NCBI GenBank assembly: GCA_963070105.1
Contig: OY718806.1
Coordinates: 4,113,865-4,177,864, forward strand
DNA from: Litomosoides sigmodontis
Taxonomy: Eukaryota > Nematoda > Chromadorea > Rhabditida > Onchocercidae
Direction: 5' to 3'
Length of the DNA: 64,000 nucleotides
Part shown: positions 6,131 through 57,600 of the stretch, piece by piece
Numbering within the stretch: position 1 is the first letter of the stretch
Layout: each line of letters opens with the position of its first letter
Translations under genes and position numbers: made by a program
The notes under the pieces: generated by a model
Seen by the model: the letters and a program-made list of their open reading frames with translations, nothing else
Databases searched by the model: none
Told to the model about the DNA's origin: nothing

Positions 6131-9099
6131 ATGCGTGAACACGTAAAGCGTCATGTGACAATTGCGGACCGATTAGAAAATACTTCCACTGGTACAACAA
6201 CTACATCGCTACAAAGCGGTGATGCCGATAGGTAACTAATTATTCTCTTTGCATGTATTTTGGAGAGAATTTCTTGCATATTTACACATATCTTATCGAC
6301 AAGTTTTAAAACGAATGTTACGGTACAGTTTGCAGAATTGAAATTCATTTCATATTCCCCCATTTATCTAAGATTCATGTTAAATTCTCATAATATTCTG
6401 CAACACGTATTGGTTTTTTTTTCTTGCATATTTTTTTCTAGCATTTTTCATATTCACGGTTGAGAGTTTTAGTGTTTCCGCAGCTGCAACTCATCCCATA
6501 CATCGTGCCATACGTACTATTTCGGGTTCAAAATCCGAAGATCATCTTATCACAACAGAAAGTGGACGTGTATGCATAATTTCATTTCCTGATTTTCTTC
6601 ATGACGTCTTTAAAAGAAGCGATTTGCTTCAACATTTTCAGTTTCATTTTCTTGTCTGCACGGTCTCTCTGATTGTGTCTGAAATGTTGCAGCGCATATA
6701 TACAAAAGGGCGTCCACCGTGGTATGATCGGGAAGGGAAAATTTTAAAACAACCATATGTGGTTGGAATTTGCGGCGGATCAGCTTCTGGGAAAACCACC
6801 GTTGCAAGACGAATAATTGAACGACTGGAAATGCCTTGGGTTACCGTTTTATCCATGGATTCCTTTTACAAAGTACTTTTTGGATTCTTCGAATATGCAT
6901 TTCGTTTTTCAATGGTGGGGTGGTAAAACATTTTGAGATGTCTTTAATTGAGTTAATTTGAATTTCGCGCTCCAGTTAAATAAATTGTTCAAGGTATTGA
7001 CAGAGGCACAGCATCATCTGGCATCCAAAAATGAATACAATTTCGACCATCCACAAGCCTTCGACTTTGATTTGATGTGCGAGACTGTTCGGCGTCTTCG
7101 AGAAGGAAAGAATGTTGAAGTTTGTCATTTTAAAACTTTAGACTATCCAAAGTTAACTAATGTTTCCGAAACTTTGATATCGCTGTTTGTAGGTCCCGGT
7201 TTACGATTTCGCTACTCACCGGCGTGATAAACAGCCAAAACTGATGTATGGTGCGGACGTACTCATTTTCGAGGGCATTTTAGCTTTTCACAACAAAGAA
7301 TTGGTTGATTTGATGGATATGAAAGTATGACTTATTAAATTCATGTTTTTTCTGAACAAAGGAAAGATTAAAGGAAAGATTTTTATCAATTTTGAGGTAT
7401 TTGTGGATACCGATCCGGATACACGACTGGCACGAAGGCTAGAGAGAGACATCCAGGATCGTGGTCGAGATCTTGAAGGTGTCTTAACTCAATATTTACG
7501 GTTTGTAAAGCCGGCTTTTGATACGTTCATTGCACCTGGCATGAAGATTGCTGATATCATCGTACCACGAGGTGGTGAAAATGAAGTAGCCATTGATCTC
7601 ATTGTTAAGCAAGTGAAAACTCAGCTAGCTGAAAGAGGTAAACAGTTTGAAGCTCATTTTTGTATGAAGATAAGTCATCCCAATGCATTACTAAAAGTTA
7701 AGGTTATGATGCATCAAAAAATCCTTATTCACAACGTGCTGGAATGGTACAAAAGGATTTACCATTGCAGTTGCCACGTACATTAACAGTTGTATCACAA
7801 ACACCGCAAGTTCGTGGCTTGCATACATATATAAGGGATCGCAAAACTCCAAGGTGATTTTTGTTAATCTTACAACTTCTTTTCGTGCATTTAAAACCTT
7901 TATATTTATGCACTTTAAATTAAGTCACAGGAGGCGTAATCTTCCAATTTTTAATTTTTAGGGATGAATTTAATTTCTATTCTAATCGATTAATGCGAAT
8001 ACTAATCGAGAATGCTATGAATTTTATGCCATTCGAAGACGCCACGGTTACTACGCCAACAATGGAAAAGTATATCTTGACTCAATTTTTTACGCTATAA
8101 AATTTTAAATGTTGGTTACAATTCCCTATAAATATGTGTGATTGAGCGAAGCACACATTTTTGTTTGTAGATTTGTTGGTAAGAGGAATACAGCGCAGAT
8201 ATGTGGTGTTACAATCATGCGTGCTGGTGAAACAATGGAGCATGCATTGCGAGTTGTCGTGAAGGACTGCAAAATGGGTAAAATTTTAATACAAACCAAT
8301 GAGAAAACGATGGAACCTGAGTTATTCTATCTGCGTCTGCCGAAGAATATTTATCGATACAAAGTTCTACTGATGGATGCTACTGTTGCTACAGGTTTTT
8401 TTCGCCTCCTTTTGTTACAGCTTAGAGGGGGGGAGGGCAGTATCGAAAATTCTGTATTAAAATTTGTCGAAGTTATATGGACATTGTGAGAGCCTGGCGA
8501 CTGACCACACTGTATCATACATTTACCAAAGTTATTCAAAACTATTCGTTTTTTGAAGTTATATAAAGTTTTCATGTTTTTTCTAAATTTGAACTTACCC
8601 TTACTAGGCTGATACTAACTGTTCTGTCTTGTTTAAAGCTTCAGAACAAGCTGTTAGTGTGCTAAAATATAACTAATTTTCACTTTCACTGCCTAGATTG
8701 TTCGGATTTGTTTTTGCAAAAATATTATTGCTACTGCGATACATATCTGTTTTTGCAGGCGCCGCTGCAATGATGGCTATTCGTGTTCTATTGGATCATG
8801 ATGTACTGGAAGAAAACATTCTGTTGTTGTCACTGCTTATGGCCGGAACTGGTGTACATTCACTTGCCTATGCTTTTCCCAAAGTATGTCTGGGCTTGTT
8901 AAAAATTCGTTCAAATTCTTATGAATGTATTGCTGTATTTATTGATTTTCAGGTTACTTTATTGACAACTGCTGTAGATCCGCATATCAATGAACTATAC
9001 TATGTCATTCCGGGGATGGGAAATTTTGGCGATCGTTATTACGGTACTGAGGCAGTGACTGCATGTGATGATTCCTCAAGTGGTGAAGAAAATCCGTAA
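6131..9099 (+). CDS. Uridine-cytidine kinase-like 1 (uridine kinase plus UPRT-like domain)
   Basis: Pyrimidine-salvage protein of the UCKL1 type: an N-terminal uridine/cytidine kinase (NTP + uridine to UMP) joined to a uracil phosphoribosyltransferase-like domain. Eleven exons close in phase: 6131-6231, 6473-6569, 6693-6872, 6994-7119, 7193-7324, 7397-7637, 7703-7853, 7962-8069, 8171-8394, 8759-8883, 8953-9099, giving 543 aa, the usual length of the family. Visible motifs: [10 protein letters not shown] before the P-loop GGSASGKTT, then [40 protein letters not shown], and in the C-terminal half [31 protein letters not shown] and [10 protein letters not shown]. The ATG at 6131 opens the first exon. 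The acceptor before 6473 (TTTTAG) was chosen over the nearby CGCAG because only it keeps phase. The acidic tail is typical. A poly(A) signal lies at 9805-9810. Whether the UPRT half is catalytic in this subfamily is uncertain. Confidence 0.95.
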
Positions 9100-20642: not shown

Positions 20643-23600
20643 TTACTGATTGCCTTCAATATCGATATGATCACCTCGCTCCAGCTCCTTCTGTTTAGCG
20701 GAATATTTGTTACTTCGTTGTCGTTCGCAACAGCACATTACTGCTGCGATGAATAATGCAAGAGCTACTGCACTTAATACTGCGATGAACCAAGCTGCGC
20801 TTCGCAAGTTTTCTACAAACATTAAATCGGTGAGTGTTCCCTCATTAACTGGTGCACTGTACGACTAGCATAAACGCATGACAAACGTGCACTTCAGTGC
20901 GAGCCACTTCTAGATGCCATTTGAATCAAATTCAAGATCTTCACGCTGCTTGAGAACAAAAACGTCATAGTAACACAAAAGTGTTCAGTTACTGCCGTCC
21001 AAAATAGATGAACGAGATTTTCAATTCAAGCTCACAACCGAGATGGTCTGTTGTATTCAAGTCTACTTTTTCCTATTGCAGTTCAGTTTCAATGCGGATG
21101 TAAGCTCCAGACGAACCGGTCGTCATTGATTCCTTTTCCATGTACGGTATTGTTCACGAATATTTTTAAACAATAGGTCGCTTCTGCTACTCACTTTTCT
21201 TGCTCTCTTTTCATTTTCAATCTGTTAAGTATTTAACGTACTCATACCATGAGAAATGTGCGTGATCGTAGTTCGACTTAAACTTCTTATTGTGATTACT
21301 TCTGATGTTCGTTGTCTTTGACCTTCCTTAGCGACACCAATCATTTTATATCGCGTACCTTCTTCTAGGTCGCTTAATAGGATTTCAGTTCGGGGTAAAC
21401 TTATTTGCTCACTTTCTACCCAATCATTACTATCTGAATATTGTTAAAATTAATGACGAGTGATAATTGCGTTTTTCATTACCGTAATAATTGCAAAAAA
21501 ATGAACAATTTTCTTACTGGCGACGGAATAATTAACAAGAAAAGTAGATCCTGGCATAGCCCACTCGGAGCCATTTGATGGTAACCACTGAACTCGAGCC
21601 GTTGTAGGAGAAATTACTTCAACAATGAAATTTGGTATGTCTGGTTCTGCAAGCACATTTAGAAATTATCAGCGGGATGGATGGCTCGCTTTGATGTTTG
21701 AAAGAAAGAAATCACCTGCAGATATCTTCTGGAAATTAAGAGAAAAACAGGTTCGACATCAGCGTACTAAGTATTTATTGATACTTATGATGAATGGATG
21801 AAAATAATGGAATTGGTTGCTTTTTTTTGTTTTGTAGTTCGTACAAGGTATTTTAACGTTTTCCTTGTTAAAGTGAAATTCCAAGCTTTTCGCATAATTG
21901 AAGTGAATGATAAAATACCTCGAAGTGGCCAGGTTCGTACTGGTCGTACCACTTTTGGTCCTTCACCACCCTTTGTTTCTGCCCAAACGGAAACCTTATA
22001 ACTAGTATCCGGTTCACCTTCCTCATTCAAATAATAAAGTTGTCGATTTAGCACAAATGTTTCATCTTTTATTCCCGTTGAGGAATCTTAAAATAAAAAA
22101 AAAAAATTAGAACAAGAAGTGTAATTCATGATAATGGAATTCAAATAGAGCTACGATTCAAGGAAATCGTTAAAAATAGTAAACTGTTAAAAGAAAACCG
22201 CACTTTCAAAAGTAATGAAGTAGCCACGAACGTATCCATTTGGCTGTCGTGGTGGTTCCCACGTAACATATAAACTTCTTGCTCCAACTGCTCGTACCCT
22301 CATATTATGTACTTTTGATGGTACTATAACATATGAAGTATTAGTTGTTAGGTTTGGGTGATGTCAATCCTCGAGAATTTCATTATTCCTTACTTCCTTC
22401 GGGAGTTGTAAATTTGATCGTTGTTGGCACCTCGCTAAGGTACCGACTGTTCGCTGTTCTAATGCGTGCTGTATAGTTTGTTATTGGCTTTAAACCGTAA
22501 AGAATCGTCGCGTTTCTCTGTTTTTCAATCCCAATATTTACTATGGCAAATGGCTTTGCATTTTCCCAGTAGTCAATCTAAAAGAAAAATGAAAGAGGTA
22601 TTAGGAGAGGAAACTATATGAGTAACTATGATTTACTTGCATGTCATTTGAATGCCTAAAAAATGGTATGTAAATTTACCAGGTAACCCTTGAAATGACC
22701 ACGTATGGATTTCCGATCCACATGTTTCCATATAAGAAGAGCGGCAGTGCAATTGATGAATTCAGAAACGCTGAAATCAACCGGCGACGACAATGGTGCT
22801 GCAAAAACATTGAATTTATAGTTACATTTTAAGATCCTCATTTTGGCACTTAAATTCTAGAAGATTTACCATCTTCTCCTGAATACCCTTTGACAGTTGT
22901 TGGTTTCACAATTGCACGACCAAAACTATTCAGAGATTCAACTTGAATTAAATATTCTCGGAATGTTGGCTGATCCCGAACAACTGTATGATTCTGAAAA
23001 TCCCAAATGAATACGTGATTCACTTGCAAAAATTGGAACTAAAATGAACTGATATTCAACAAATAACTTACTGCTAAAGGGTCTTCAATTCGTATTTCTG
23101 TCCAAGTTTCTCCTGGTTGATTAAGCTTATAACGGACAATGTACTGCAATCCTGGACCATTCCAATCATATTTGTGCATTGGCTTCCATTCAATGATCAT
23201 ATTATTTGGTTCGCTCCCTTCCGCTCGGACACCCTTCGGATTTGTGTATGGGTAGTAAGGTTTCGTGGAGCACACTTTCCCCTTCTTGAAGCCTGGCTCG
23301 CTTTCACCACGCGAATTTCGAGCTATTACACGGAATGTGTAATTCACCTGAAATGTGAAATTCACCTTGTTGACGAAATTACTAAATTGCTTGCTCCAAT
23401 GGGTAATGGACGAGTTGGATAATTTATCGAGAAAATTCTCAATAATATGCACTTTGTCTGGAAGTGAAAATTTTAAATTCTCACCCACGGTGAAAGTGCA
23501 ATTTCCGCTTGGTAGAAATCGGCATCAGTGTTCGCCTCCTCCACAGCAGTTTTCCATAATCCCTGAAGTTAACTTTGGGTGACTTCGGCGCTAACATCCA

Positions 23601-29013: not shown

Positions 29014-29736
29014 TCCTTAAAGGTATGGTTTTGTGCCATGTTTTATAAATGATTACTTTTCGGTTCACACTTCAATCGTACCTTCAACTTTCATCGTTTG
29101 CAAAAAAGAAAACTTACAATGAAATTATTCCACCATTAATTTTTGTAAAAGTCAAGAAAAATATTGTTTTAAAATCTGAGTTGAAGAGCTCACTTTAAAA
29201 GTTGCGGATGAAATTATTTTTTAAGCAAAAATTTTAACCTAATATATAAGTAATGATGGTTATGCAAATTCTGATAGAGGGACAAATTGTTATAGCTAAA
29301 TTTAATTTAATATTGCGATCACCTGGAGTTTGGAAACAATGAGCGGATGCCAGAAGCTTCTACCTTCACGCAGGTCAAGTACGCACGACGAGGGGTCATG
29401 CATTCATAATTGTTACATCATAGATTGTTATCAAGCTGCTTCGATCCAACTTTCCAGCTAGGCTGGAAATGATGAAAAATGAAATGCAAAGGGTTGAATT
29501 TGTAAAAATTAAATGGAACTGATAATAATTTGCCAAACCACCTCTTAGACGAAACTTTAAGCTCCCGTCTGTATGATAATATAACACACATTTATTTCAC
29601 AAATAATTCAATTTCCACTTTGAGGCTTTAATTTTATACAGCAAATTTTTCAAATAATTCCTCGTAGAAGCTGAACTGAAATTTTGGTAATTAGCTGTGA
29701 TACAAACTAAAACAACAATAACAACAACGGTAAAAT

Positions 29737-30066
<330 letters not shown>

Positions 30067-30461
30067 TAAAGTAGTGCAATAGGACATATAATAATGTAAA
30101 ACACAAGTTAAGGAATGAAATAAATAAATTTAATGAAAATAGATAGAAAGTAGACAAGAAATAAATGAAAGAATAAACTTTAAGTAACAGAAATCAATCT
30201 AAAGACTTATTTTTCATGCTTTTTGAGCCTAGCAACGAATTGGAGGATTGAAGGAAGTGATAGGGTAATGCAGGGAAGAACTGCAAGTGGAAGTTAAAGT
30301 ATGGCCAAGTTCGTGTAGGTTTTAGTGAGGCAAAGCAATGCGCTGGCTGTGCCCCAATTGAGATTTTCAGAAACTCAGAAAGGAATGGGAGGTTGCTTAG
30401 GCTTCGATTCCCCTGAAATAGCCCCTTCTTCGCTCACACCTACTCAGTGGTCACATTATCA

Positions 30462-50872: not shown

Positions 50873-52756
50873 AGTAAAGGTTTTTTGTCTTTTTTAAGGC
50901 GTCTTTACTTTCCACTTTTACATGAAGCGACATTTCTTAAGTTCTCTATTTTATTAAGTCAGTGAAGTTTCAAAATAAATTTATTTAAGGGATTAATGAA
51001 AATTTTTTTACGTCTTTGGATTAATTGATTCTAATTAATATCGTTAGTTAGTCACAAGTTGAAATTCACTGATAGGGTGAGAAATTGGAGAGAGAAAATC
51101 CTTTGCTGTCATGAAATCAGAAAACGGAAACACATAGTCGCTTCCTGTTGTTTTTTCATTTGAGCGCGGGTTTTATGTCTTTCTACTGCGTTTTGTGGTG
51201 GTGCCTCTGTTACAGCGAATAGCTGCTACTAAGGTGAACAGTCTCGATTAGTTTTATCATAATTTGGTTCTTCTGATCATTGTTGATCTTTTCTGATTTA
51301 AAGTAATATTTCACTATCCGAGTAAGGATGGCAGATTCATTTCATTGAGAATAATTTTCATGAAATTTCGACATGATCAGAATTTCATTACATCCGTTTC
51401 GTTTTTTATTCTTAGCTTTGTTCTTGAAGAACACAAATCTGTAATCTTTTTCAAATCTCTTCGCATTCACGCTTTCCTGCACCATACTATAGTTTGGTTC
51501 CTTGCAGTCTTCCTAGAATGAGTTATTCATTGAATGCCTTGAACTCGAAGCACTCCTCTCTACTGCTAACCTTTTCCCCTTTTCATCCTTTCCCCATTCA
51601 TTTTCATATTTCTTTGCGGTGCTTTCCTCTATAACGTTTTTTTTAATGTGCTGCTAGAACATTGTTTCACGATGTCGTGTGTCGTATGATTATGTATGTA
51701 ATGTTGTCCTGTTTTGTTTGGCATTGATGTGCCACTGCAAAAATTGGATAGAATTTATTAGTTGTTTCTTTCAATTCTAAATCTTATTTTTAAGTATGGA
51801 AAGTTCCTTCCTACAGATTGTACAATAATTCTGTACAGGTCCGAACAGTGTACGCGTCTTGTCATTTTTTCCATCCTTGGCCCCTACACATCCCCACAAA
51901 CACATACACAGTATTCTAATCTCGACTGATCTAATTTGGCCATTTTATCCGTCCTGTAATTTGTTCTTTGTCTTATTTTAGCTTTTGTTGGAGAAGAAAA
52001 ATTGTATATTTTTAATATCAAGCTCTGTGTATCAAAATAATGCGCCTGTTCAGAAATAATATGTAGATATGGAGTATAAAGCATTCCGCAGTATATGTAA
52101 GAGTCTATGTTACTATTATTAACTTTAAAATGTTTGAAATTTCTTGCTCTTCTTTTATCCAATGGTTTTTTAAATGAGGGAAGTGGTGAATTCAGAAAGG
52201 GTAAACGGATTCTGTTCACTTCGTAGATGATCGGTCGGGTTTATTGGATGGTGAAGTCAGTGGGGGTTACGCATTTCGCAAATTTTGCAAGCGGTCGTGG
52301 ATCATTTATTATCAGGATTGTCATCGGATAAAACAGTGTGAGGAGGTCTTAAGTGGTTTTTATGGCTAATGTAAGTGATCAAGCGAAAGCATCTGGTGAT
52401 TAACTGCTCATTACAGTGAGAACATAAGTGTCCGGAATGTGTACGTTCATTTAGCGGCGGTATTTTTCGAAGCAATCAGTGACGGGCGACTGCTGTTATA
52501 TATTTGGGTGTCTTCATTTTCATCTCTTTAAATAGCGTTAGGATAATTCTAGGAAAGCGAAAGACGATTGTTAGCTCTGTGGGTTTGATGTGTATAGAAT
52601 TCTTGGAAGATTTCGAGACAGAAATATTTCCTTGTCGAAGTGTTATTTCATAAGGACCATTTCTCTATTGGTATAACTTATTTAACTGTGGATTTGGTAA
52701 TATAAAAGCAGAAGTAATTTCTTCCCTTTCTGTGCAGTTGCAGGGTGACGTCCGAC
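50873..52756. other. BICRA-like 3' UTR and intergenic region before LSM11
   Basis: The 3' UTR probably ends near AATAAA at 50974-50979. The following 1.7 kb is T-rich, with no coding exon that I can support. A donor-like site and promoter for LSM11 presumably lie in 52.2-52.75 kb. Confidence 0.5.
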
Positions 52757-54393
52757 ATGGATTTTTTTTCTTCGAGTTTTAATGCCGAAATGGTTTTAAG
52801 TGATGTCAACCTTTCCTCGAAAGGGTTCGGAATTTTTGCGTCAGTTGACAAATTTGAACAACACTTACTGAACACAAATATTGCTCTCGTTGGAGAGTTA
52901 CAAAAGCTGGAACCTCAGGAAAATGTAAAGAAATTAAACGGATTGCCCAGGTAAACTATGGAAAGGTGGTGAGCGTTTTAAAAGTTTAGAAGCAAAGACG
53001 GAAATCAGAATTTAGAGTGCTTGTCATGGATGCTGGCTATCTGAAGCTTTCAAGTATGGAAATGGTGTTTACGTTTTAAAAAAAAAACCGTCTTTAACGA
53101 ATTTCAACTTTATGTGATGTGGAGGTTTTTGTCCGATTATCGTTTCTCAGGAATTGATTAAGTGCGCTGTTTGGAGATATTTATCGATGTTTAATATTGA
53201 CAGTACTTCACTTCCAACGCGAATATTGTTTTAAAAGTCAATATTGACTCAGACATTAAATATGCAACATTCCTACACACATATAAAAAGATTTCCCGTA
53301 TATATGTGAATTCCTCAATCGACTTGTAGTAAGTATTCGGTCTGTCGAATTCATTTTTGATAAGAGCTTTCGAAGCATGAATATATTTATTAGTTGGTAC
53401 ACCCGACCAGCAGGAAATGTCCATCAATTATGTTATACGCAAAGGTTAGGCTAAATTGGTTTAAGCAGTGAAGTTCGTCCGTTTACATTCATCTCGTTAT
53501 ATTTTTTTGAACTGTATTCTATTATTGAATGAAGCAAATTTCAGGAAAGGTCGACTATCACAAATATGTGCACAAAAAGGAAGAAACCTAACTGAAACTG
53601 CTCGGGAATTAAACTTTAATAAGGTGGCGCTATTTGTTCATGTCGGATCTTACTTTAATGTTTATAACTTAACTGCTTATAGAGAAGGGATGCTAACTGC
53701 TCTCAAACAGTCCAGCAAGGACCAATGAAACGTTTGGAAGAGTGTATGGAACGTGGACATCGTGTGTGCATTAATTTGCGAGGGCGGAATAGCGTAAACT
53801 CGTTCATTGACGCGAAAGTTGTTGCATTTGATAAGCACTGGAACTTGCTAATAAGGTTTGTCGTACTCTGACACGAACTGGCCAGAAATTACATGCCAAC
53901 GTCTGCATATCGACTTCCCACAAAACGGCAACCTACTATCTCAAATTTTAACTTATTGCTATTGCTGACAAGCACCCACTTGTCTTAGTTCCCAAACAGT
54001 CATAAAGCTGTGAGGTTAAATCTTTCATGTCTTGAAATCACAATATGTGCTGCTCACTTACTAATCTCAGGTGAAATATGGTTTATGTTAGGGAAGTAAA
54101 TACGAATCAGAACTTTAATACGACATTACGAATTTGTAAAAATCAAAGTTTAGTGAGCATCCAATAATTTATAAGCGTATAAATCAACAAAATAATATAG
54201 AGACGGTGATGAGAGTTTCAAGCCGTCAATACGAATGAAACGTCAAGTCACCAAGAGTATGCGGATAACAACGCCACACCGGTATTATGAAAGCCAATAT
54301 AAGGATGGGAAGGGTAAAACAAAAACACAATGGCGACGTCATTTACCATTTTCGCTGATACGTGGGGACGACATTGTTCTAATTGCTTGCTGA
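52757..54393 (+). CDS. lsm11: U7 snRNP-specific Sm-like protein LSM11
   Basis: LSM11 replaces SmD2 in the U7 snRNP and recruits FLASH for 3' cleavage of replication-dependent histone mRNAs. Four exons in perfect phase, 52757-52950, 53545-53623, 53716-53855 and 54201-54393, encode 201 aa. The N-terminal segment (MDFFSSSFNAEMVLSDVNLS, then FASVDKFEQHLL) resembles the LSM11 FLASH-binding region. The Sm1 motif spans exon 3: GPMKRLEECMERGHRVCINL followed by DAKVVAFDKHWNLLI. Exon 4 starts RDGDE at the position of the LSM11 DVDE element. The carboxyl-terminal Sm2 part is TQWRRHLPFSLIRGDDIVLI, with the typical IRG(D/E). The split Sm fold with a long inserted linker is specific to LSM11 rather than LSM10 or SmD proteins. 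Shorter than the human protein. Poly(A) signal at 54557-54562. Confidence 0.82.
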
Positions 54394-54628
54394 GCGTTCC
54401 CTATGGTAAGTGCATTCGAAAAACTACTTGGTACATTTTCTGCAAAAATATTTGGAACAAAATAATATTCACAGATGATCAGCGAAAGAGTGGGATCGTA
54501 ACCCACGTATCAGATTCTAGAAAGCCTTTTCCTACTTTTGCAAAATAATTTCAAAAAATAAACACCTTTATCCGATAAAATGTGGGAATTTGATAAAATT
54601 ACTTTAGAAAATGACTTATTTCCTAACT
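54394..54628. terminator. Convergent 3' spacer between LSM11 and exportin-T
   Basis: Only 235 bases separate the two facing stop codons. AATAAA at 54557-54562 serves LSM11 (plus strand). The transcripts may overlap at their 3' ends. Confidence 0.5.
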
Positions 54629-57600
54629 TCACGGTGCAACTCTTTCCGCCTTCATTAGCCTCAGCTGAACATACTGCATATCCAAAGCATTTTCCAATTG
54701 TTTACCCTGTAATTTTTCACTGCTTATAATAAATATGTGCATCAGTCTACCACATGTACAAAGATTCACAATGAAATATGCTATTTTGAATTATCCAAAA
54801 ATTAGGTACTTACCTTATAACTGCATATACATTGACAGAAATTTCGAGCAATATCTATAGGAAGAAACAACTGTAAGTGCCGGTCAAACCTGCAAGAATG
54901 TCTACGTGATTACAGGTGTCAAACTTCGGGTGTTTTAATTTTAGATGAAAACAGTAAAACTAACAGATCTCTTACCTTTCGAAAGAATATGATCGTAGAG
55001 TTTGTAAACACACGTAAATTTCGTGCTGCAGCAAAACACACTGAGCGTCTGCAAGGTCATGGTGACCATTAAGAGGAGTCTGCAAATAATGGTTACGTCA
55101 TGTTTAATTTAGAAACAAAAAACTGCGGGTGCATTTGGAAAAATTCCTACAGATATGGAAGGTCCAATTATGACTCATCATTTTTTTCAAAATATCCTAC
55201 ACATCATATACGTAGGAAAATTACCAGAAACGCGCCAGAAACCGCCTTCTCCCATAAAAAATCGATAGCTGACCCATCATTCGAGAGCCTTCGAAACAGT
55301 TTGTTAATAATTTGAAATGTAAGGCGTTGCGTTGGTATATCATTTAAGTCCATGAAAGAAACGAGTGAGTCTGCTACTTTGTGGAGAAATTTGGTGCCTT
55401 CAAAGTTAAAGAATTTGAAGTGATCTTCCGTTAAAGAAGACTAAATCCGGAAATGAATTAACGAAAAATTGCACAAAGTAGGAATTTGAGATTTCATACC
55501 ATCTGTCAATACAACAATTAGATCGTTTGTCAAGATACTCAAGATTGTTTGCAGATAAGCTCGGTTATAATAAATGATGTCCCTATCGCCGTTCTCATTT
55601 GATATATCGAATGGTATTCTTTGTGCGCTCCATAAAATATCAAACAAAGCGGGAATATCCAGGCCTGTTTCCAAAAGGCGTTTCTGAAATAGAATTTGCC
55701 ACCCTGTTGAGGAAACCTACCAGAGCAGAACTCCTTCAAGTGATATAGTAGCAAGTGATTTGCTCACAAAAGAGAAAGCGACAGTTTGGAAGGAGACAAT
55801 AATATGATAAAGTCTGTAGAAACACACCTTGAACTTGCCAAAAATTTGTTGCAATAAAATAAGAAAGTCATGTGCCACTTTAAGATTTGAACCAACGTCA
55901 AGATATTTAGCACAAATAGCTGGTAACATAACTAGTATTTCGCTATCAAGACAGGTGACCATCCGATGAAGGTACTGCCTCAGTGCATCCAGTCCTTCCA
56001 CATTATCTGGAGTTATCTTATCCAGAAATACCTAAGAATTATATCAACTTATTACTATCTCAATAATCGGAAATGTTGATAGCCAATTGAAGCAACACAA
56101 AATAGTTTTAAAAAAACCAAGTTTCCACTCCAAAATGAACTTTTCCTATCCTCTGACCGTACGTAAAAAAAAATTTCGTAAAGGAGTTCACACAGCAATG
56201 AGATAACACAAAACAAGTAAAGGATGAACGCACTTCCATCAATTCAATAAAAATAATAGTGCACTGACAGCATTGCATGGTGTAGTTATTTGTAAATGCT
56301 TTAGTAACACGCCTGAAAATATGGATAATCATATTATACATATAACTGCCAAAAACACACAGTTCTAAACTAAGATTAAATCGAAAACTCACGCGCTATA
56401 ACCAATTACATCAGCATAGCGCTGATAAAGCTGATGTACTTCTTCAACATTCTTTGTTCGTGATAATCTTTCCGTTATGCGTGAGAATTTTTGAAGTAAT
56501 GATAAACCGAGAGCTTTAATGCATTCTTGCTTTCTTTCAACAAATAGATTGCTGTGAACAATTAACACTGATGTAGATTCATATAGATACATCTAAAATT
56601 TGATAAAAACAATATCCCATTGATTACAGGAGTATCAAACAAAATTTATGCGCAAAACATGATGGATGATTAAGATATCAAAACTTGAGGATCGAAAACA
56701 ATTCATAATATCTGATATGCTGAAAAGTGCTAGCTTAACTAATAAGTTGACCAAAGGGAATGGTTTAACCATTAAAATCGTAAGTCTAGGACAAAAAAAC
56801 ACATATAGAGAGCTAAAATTATGAACAGTCTAAATTTTGGATCTTATGGCGGTATAAACAGCAGTAACGAAATGCGAAAGACAACCTGATCCTCTTTCGA
56901 AAGCTGATAATCTTCTTCCGATGTTACTGTGAAAAATGACTCTAACTTTGCCAGAACATTTTCAGCTTGACTACCTATGAAAAGCCTGAAAACATCTTTT
57001 AATGAGAAAGCAATTTAAAGAAGCTATTTATTAAAATATTTTGCTTACTTATGTGCTTTCACAAAGCGACAAAACAAGTAGATAATGCGACTTCTTGACT
57101 GCAACGAAACCTGGCGAAGACCACGTGTATCTAGGAATGCTTCCTGAAAAGGAAAAGAGAAAAAATTATCATAATGCTTGTCTAGTATCTATGTGGACTG
57201 GAGACTTCGCTGAAAACCTACATATTAAAGGAGCTGAAAAGCAGTCATTAATAAACACCTTACTTACTGTTGGATGTATACCTAAGACTAAAATTTTAAA
57301 TCCAAACCAGTATCATTGGCAATGGACCGGTACTACTTTGCAGCACTCTTTCACAATGGCAAGCAATTTCGAAGAATAATGTATTAATACAAGGTAAACC
57401 ACAATGATTTATCGTACTTTGTAGAATCTAAATACATCAATTTTTAAACAGATAAGAATACGCCAAATATTAATATAAGGTAATCCCCAATGATTTATAG
57501 AAAAACATTGCTTTTAATTTTATAATTTTTTGTGTAGTTAAAAAGTTACTAATTTACACAAATAAAACGAACCTTCAATACCATTTTTTTTGCGCGATCA

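Follow-up and report, generated by a model that had tools for sequence, protein, structure and literature searches.

Parts of a U7-type histone mRNA cutting machine appear to be kept in a filarial nematode, Litomosoides sigmodontis

Is the animal-type machine that cuts histone mRNAs, the U7 small nuclear ribonucleoprotein (snRNP), kept in any nematode? The question is raised by a four-exon gene of the rodent filarial worm Litomosoides sigmodontis (suborder Spirurina). The gene lies at 52757..54393 of the window, i.e. of the 64,000 nucleotides at 4113865-4177864 of contig C6 (genome: 65.9 Mb, 7 contigs). Judged by its sequence, the product is a filarial LSM11 orthologue and not SmD2. A known machine appears thereby to be recorded for a nematode, with most of its parts in one genome and its RNA as a strong candidate, and the machine appears to be kept in some nematodes. 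The best explanation is very probably an LSM11/LSM10/U7-like particle that acts on histone pre-mRNAs. The U7 machine is known already; its occurrence is apparently new for nematodes. Literature searches, with most subscription journals outside their coverage, found neither U7 nor LSM11 reported from a filarial worm. Histone mRNA end formation in nematodes has been a question ever since the failure to identify U7 in Caenorhabditis elegans, for which a CSR-1 route is proposed (passages of PMC6509145, citing Davila Lopez and Samuelsson 2008 and Avgousti 2012).

The first-pass annotation had described an intact gene with exons in perfect phase, and this description holds. The four exons are joined in frame and encode a protein of 212 amino acids (aa), all introns are GT-AG (594, 59 and 345 bases), and the product matches a public L. 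sigmodontis protein from end to end (100% identity). The exons are given below.

52757..52950, plus strand: LSM11 exon 1; start codon and LSM11-specific N-terminal extension MDFFSSSFNAEMVL...SVDKFEQHL (gene model, identical public protein, profile-profile match).
53545..53623, plus strand: LSM11 exon 2; RKGRLSQICAQKGRN..., basic linker (gene model).
53683..53855, plus strand: LSM11 exon 3; bulk of Sm1 (GPMKRLEECMERGHRVCINLRGRNSVNSFIDAKVVAFDKHWNLLI), aligned with human and arthropod LSM11.
54201..54393, plus strand: LSM11 exon 4; last part of Sm1 (RDGDESF), then the spacer and the closing strand LIRGDDIVLI, with the stop codon TGA at 54391-54393.

Residues ~103-155 correspond to the Sm1 block and residues 202-210 to IRGDDIVLI. 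Proteins of 9 other filarial species are aligned at 52-71% identity over 99-100% of the query, and the Sm core is well conserved among filarial proteins. The names of the 10 filarial proteins, as far as displayed, are LSM/Sm domain, unnamed or uncharacterised; none is displayed as LSM11.

Is the protein LSM11 or SmD2? Human LSm11 is the best PDB match both in a single-sequence search (8e-6) and in a profile search (1.3e-8; the best SmD2 has 3.3e-5). In the profile comparison proposed earlier, the LSM11 profile gives 79.8 bits and the SmD2 profile 19.6 bits on the L. sigmodontis protein (a gap of ~60 bits), a preference that is partly circular, since the members of this LSM11 profile had themselves been collected with the filarial profile. 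A separate LSM11-profile search gave 33 matches, with relatives in Toxocara, in Steinernema and in Gordionus, a nematomorph; none of the 33 is a named protein of C. elegans. Four non-nematode matches bear a functional name, LSm11 in each case, and all four are from arthropods. The best non-nematode matches are those to LSM11, and not to SmD2, the contrary outcome named in the first-pass annotation. The exon 1 segment MDFFSSSFNAEMVL...SVDKFEQHL resembles arthropod LDFxSxKFDPLKAL... In a profile-profile comparison, the nematode N-termini match those of arthropod LSM11 and of 3 unnamed LSM11-like proteins (score 35.7, probability 84%; best of 60 column-shuffled controls: score 16.8, probability 1.6%). 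This points to homology with other LSM11 in the segment that had been called FLASH-binding-like.

The split Sm fold and the C-terminal strand claimed earlier are both found in the AlphaFold model, in which the Sm1 block and the IRGDDIVLI strand are predicted to form one Sm fold with a spacer between them (pLDDT: core, 74-92 in blocks of ten; whole model, 64.8). Human LSm11 superposes on this model at 1.3-1.4 A over 80 residues, its Z being tied with that of other Sm proteins, from which LSM11 cannot be told apart by structure. The phylogenetic tree includes 28 rows (left out: P0022, P0023, P0025, P0027-P0029, P0031, P0032, P0038, P0040, P0042; human LSM11 is a 66-residue piece). In this tree, SmD2 is set apart (100/98) and the filarial, Toxocara and Steinernema proteins are grouped (94/90), with long branches. 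Nematode and arthropod LSM11 do not come together in it as a group without SmD2.

This last result and the circularity of the profile preference weigh against the assignment to LSM11. Weak points of the gene's domain matches are the score of the L. sigmodontis N-terminus taken alone (6.3 bits; best shuffle, 9.5), the Pfam LSM match of the protein (18.5 bits; cut-off, 23.4) and the absence of the gene from the 24 matches of the whole-genome Pfam LSM scan. The worm protein has the Sm fold, the GPL start and the AFDxHxN core in common with SmD2. That the gene is a divergent copy of SmD2, or codes for some other Sm-like protein, is hardly credible in view of the profile preference, the PDB ranking of LSm11 above SmD2 and the N-terminal homology (SmD2 is without the extension that worm LSM11 has). 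It is also opposed by the worm's own, separate and ordinary SmD2 (human SmD2, 6.6e-58; C. elegans SmD2, 2e-59).

In Steinernema hermaphroditum, gene prediction puts LSM11 at the front of a phosphatase fusion (P0021, P0023; name beginning Phospholysine phosphohist...): this is a gene-model fusion, an operon fusion or a genuine one.

Are the partners of LSM11 present? Among the 24 matches of the Sm/LSm domain scan, candidates which we take, by eye and from family marks, to be SmB, D1, D2, D3, E, F, G and LSm1-8 were recognised; D1 and D2 are the ones checked by search, which places a separate SmD1 in the genome. The same scan gave an LSM10-like gene.

Contig C1, exons 5813741-5813618 and 5813028-5812802, minus strand: LSM10-like gene.

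Human LSm10 is the top match of a nine-sequence LSM10 profile (9.8e-11; runners-up: 9if7 Sm protein, 1.1e-9; LSm4, 7e-9; human SmD1, 1.8e-4). In the single-sequence search, a 9if7 chain is first and LSm10 second. An SLBP RNA-binding domain is found on contig C3 (E 1.8e-13). LSM10 and SLBP, two of the partners for which a search had been proposed, are present, and LSM11 coexists in one genome with LSM10 and a separate SmD2.

Do the histone genes carry the signals that such a particle would read? The genome contains 24 histone-fold matches plus H1; the 3′ flanks of 8 genes were read.

Contig C2, 9378671-9385350: histone cluster; 5 intronless genes, by eye H1, H3, H2A, H2B and H4.

Each gene of this cluster (5/5) ends with a stem-loop, GGCCCT-NNNN-AGGGCC, followed by ACAA; the loop is CTTT in H2B and H4 and CTTA in H1. 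A common element, ATGARTCNTGCT, is located 8-9 bases past the stem, again in 5/5. Stem-loop and downstream element are thus found where the first-pass annotation had proposed to look for them. The fixed place of one element behind five different histone genes points to a function. A stem-loop model gives 8 matches in the genome, none above the Rfam cut-off, 5 of which are the C2 cluster; it also gives weak matches in 14/14 control genomes. Near the match at C6:9990995, no histone gene was recognised by eye. The remaining two were scanned by regular expression only, which is too strict for the C2 loops. A second group of H4, H2A and H2B genes (C1:1360000-1369000) has stem-loop and element in 0/3 copies, within 260 bases past the stop; this group is perhaps replication-independent. 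Diverged H2A- and H2B-like genes, including two identical, inverted H2A-like copies, are found at C6:9240000-9249900.

Is there an RNA to pair with the element? The exact complement of the element, the 11-mer GCATGATTCAT, has 48 sites in the genome: 2 are histone elements, 1 is the locus of an earlier pattern and 45 were fetched and folded. One of these 45 loci has a U7-type Sm site and a hairpin.

Contig C3, 7365094-7365154: candidate U7 snRNA, about 61 nucleotides (nt); predicted limits, by the promoter element at the 5′ side and by the hairpin at the 3′ side.

The candidate, found as 1 copy in the genome, reads UUAAGCAUGAUUCAU-AUUUUGUCCA-GUUGGUCCGC-CCUG-GCGGGCCGGC (complement, U7-like Sm site, hairpin). 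The hairpin lies directly past the Sm site and has 10 pairs, 3 of them G-U. The 70 bases downstream give the most stable fold of the 45 loci, and 38/2000 mononucleotide shuffles of the 3′ half fold equally stably. Chance would give 3e-5 such sites in 45 loci (base rates, 441 kb, both strands), in a test framed after the candidate had been seen. The snRNA genes located in the genome are U1 (n=5), U2 (n=4) and U5 (n=3). A motif at -56 to -58 was derived from 7 of their promoters, near-copies being excluded. The candidate carries this motif 71 bases 5′ of the core, with a score of 12.6 (snRNA promoters, each scored with itself omitted from the motif, 9.5-20.1; the other 44 loci, at most 2.8; p ~0.002). 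Between its 5′ end and the elements of the 5 histone genes, duplexes of -24 to -27 kcal/mol are computed, in which a second block (e.g. GAUC) further downstream also takes part; the pairing beyond the 11-mer core would lend weak independent support. U7 is the best of 4 weak Rfam matches to the candidate stretch and extends across the full model.

Other results count against a U7 identity. The Sm site, AUUUUGUCCAG, retains UUUGUC and ends with CC where the U7 type, AAUUUGUCU, ends with CU, a CU that is virtually invariable according to a passage of PMC7026596. The Rfam U7 score (RF00066) is 13.3 bits (E 1.4), for a cut-off of 34 that is set by curators and is no biological feature. Since the loci were searched with the 11-mer, there is some circularity in the duplex energies, and two other loci are within 0.6 kcal/mol of the candidate. 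Folded alone, the candidate has its 5′ end partly self-paired. Complement, hairpin and promoter element favour the U7 snRNA sought since the first-pass annotation, the Rfam score does not, and the Sm site agrees with the U7 type in one part and departs from it in another. LSM10 and a U7-like candidate gene are both present, and not the joint absence of LSM10 and U7 from a complete genome that had been named as contrary evidence.

Further scans gave the following. RF00066 run on the whole genome: no match, the controls being silent as well, and hence uninformative. Rfam on 39/44 other loci: no U7 match at an E limit that the candidate itself did not pass, so that equally weak matches would not show. 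Pattern GCATGAYTCAT plus AATTTNTC: 1 match, rejected by eye for want of a U7 hairpin. Pattern GATTCAT plus AATTTNTCNNG: 20 matches, rejected, 0 having the full complement. U7 core in public viral and prokaryote contigs: 0 and 1 match (bacterial bin), respectively, about chance by estimate. Contig C5 carries interspersed U2 and U5 genes, 3 each, in near-identical copies (C5:9935297-9939172).

How would these parts work together? The sequence itself shows the protein families, the stem-loops with their common element and a complementary candidate RNA gene that has a U7-like layout and an snRNA-type promoter element. By analogy with the particle of human and fly (parts of PMC7026596, PMC5636114 and PMC12774660), we infer that the RNA is transcribed, that the ring assembles, that recruitment runs through FLASH/CPSF73 and that the pre-mRNA is cut. 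LSM10 and LSM11 would take the places of SmD1 and SmD2 in the Sm ring on a single-copy U7-like snRNA of ~60 nt. The 5′ end of this RNA would pair with ATGARTCNTGCT, which starts 8-9 nt past the stem-loop of clustered histone pre-mRNAs, and with the second block further downstream. SLBP would hold the stem-loop, the N-terminus of LSM11 would bring FLASH and the CPSF73 cleavage module, and the cut would fall a few bases past the stem-loop. In human, the N-terminal extension of LSM11 binds FLASH and CPSF73, and one of its helices contacts CPSF73 (passage of PMC12774660); the exon 2 linker is, by position, its possible counterpart (helix 66-77 in the AlphaFold model, where pLDDT is <50).

Like the vertebrate and Drosophila U7 snRNP, the worm set has LSM10 and LSM11 beside ordinary SmD1 and SmD2, SLBP, a stem-loop, a downstream element and an RNA with a complementary 5′ end, a U7-like Sm site, a 3′ hairpin and an snRNA-type promoter element. 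It differs by its element (ATGARTCNTGCT, not purine-rich), its Sm site (AUUUUGUCCAG; Rfam consensus, AAUUUGUCUAG), an RNA under the Rfam cut-off and a short LSM11 (212 aa, against 371 for the human chain in PDB 9nh5). With C. elegans it shares a stem-loop with a CTTT or CTTA loop, SLBP (CDL-1 in C. elegans), a conserved element right behind the hairpin (passage of PMC1924863) and an annotated LSm10 (passage of PMC5737717). In C. elegans, by contrast, U7 is not identified, no named protein is among the 33 LSM11-profile matches and AATAAA is immediately 3′ of the element in histone genes.

Two other accounts of the same parts have to be weighed. LSM11 and LSM10 might serve another RNP (e.g. spliced-leader or other Sm-class), the U7-like RNA being a chance look-alike and histone ends being formed through CSR-1 small RNAs as proposed for C. 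elegans. The annotated LSm10 orthologue of that species, K07A1.15, has no known phenotype (passage of PMC5737717); C. elegans having LSm10 and no recognised U7 (PMC6509145, in part), LSM10 can persist without a recognised U7. This account is quite improbable, since the worm LSM11 keeps the N-terminal extension for histone processing and the histone element has its complement in an RNA whose U7-like Sm site, hairpin and snRNA promoter element are independent of that match. Alternatively, a protein or a small RNA, rather than U7, might recognise the element, as perhaps in C. elegans, where a conserved AATCC at the same place, that of the histone downstream element, is taken by the authors for a U7 site (passage of PMC1924863) yet no U7 is identified. 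Such a factor is very improbable in a genome that has an RNA with the exact complement and the U7 layout.

When was the gene acquired? Its relatives are found in Spirurina (Toxocara), Tylenchina (Steinernema) and Nematomorpha (Gordionus); LSM11 occurring also in human and arthropods, the gene is older than nematodes. Its absence from C. elegans, if real, would be secondary. The sequences suggest an ancestral U7 pathway, lost or diverged towards Caenorhabditis. The first-pass annotation had proposed a pathway kept here and lost later in Caenorhabditis; LSM10, SLBP, the histone signals, the U7-like gene and the spread of LSM11 support this, in the wider form "lost or diverged". It is rather unlikely that the ancestral U7 snRNP is still used by Caenorhabditis as a particle too diverged for recognition, the CSR-1 route then having been added to U7 instead of taking its place. 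If there was a real loss or divergence, the filarial set places it on the line towards Caenorhabditis. The filarial set gives a concrete seed sequence for U7 searches across nematodes, and the LSm10 and AATCC element of C. elegans become testable as relics or working parts.

The ends of the LSM11 gene carry two further features.

52697..52737, plus strand: stretch that closes with a site resembling a 3′ splice acceptor (TTTCTGTGCAG), 19 bases 5′ of the ATG; possibly a spliced-leader or 5′ untranslated region acceptor.
54557..54562, plus strand: candidate polyadenylation signal AATAAA; a second AATAAA is at 54728.

Elsewhere in the window, a long open frame at 29597-30193 (minus strand), mostly leucine, comes from a simple repeat and is probably no gene. 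Two further regions, 6384-7786 and 23039-23524, contain exons, those of a uridine kinase-type gene (PF00485) and those of a fibronectin-III protein.
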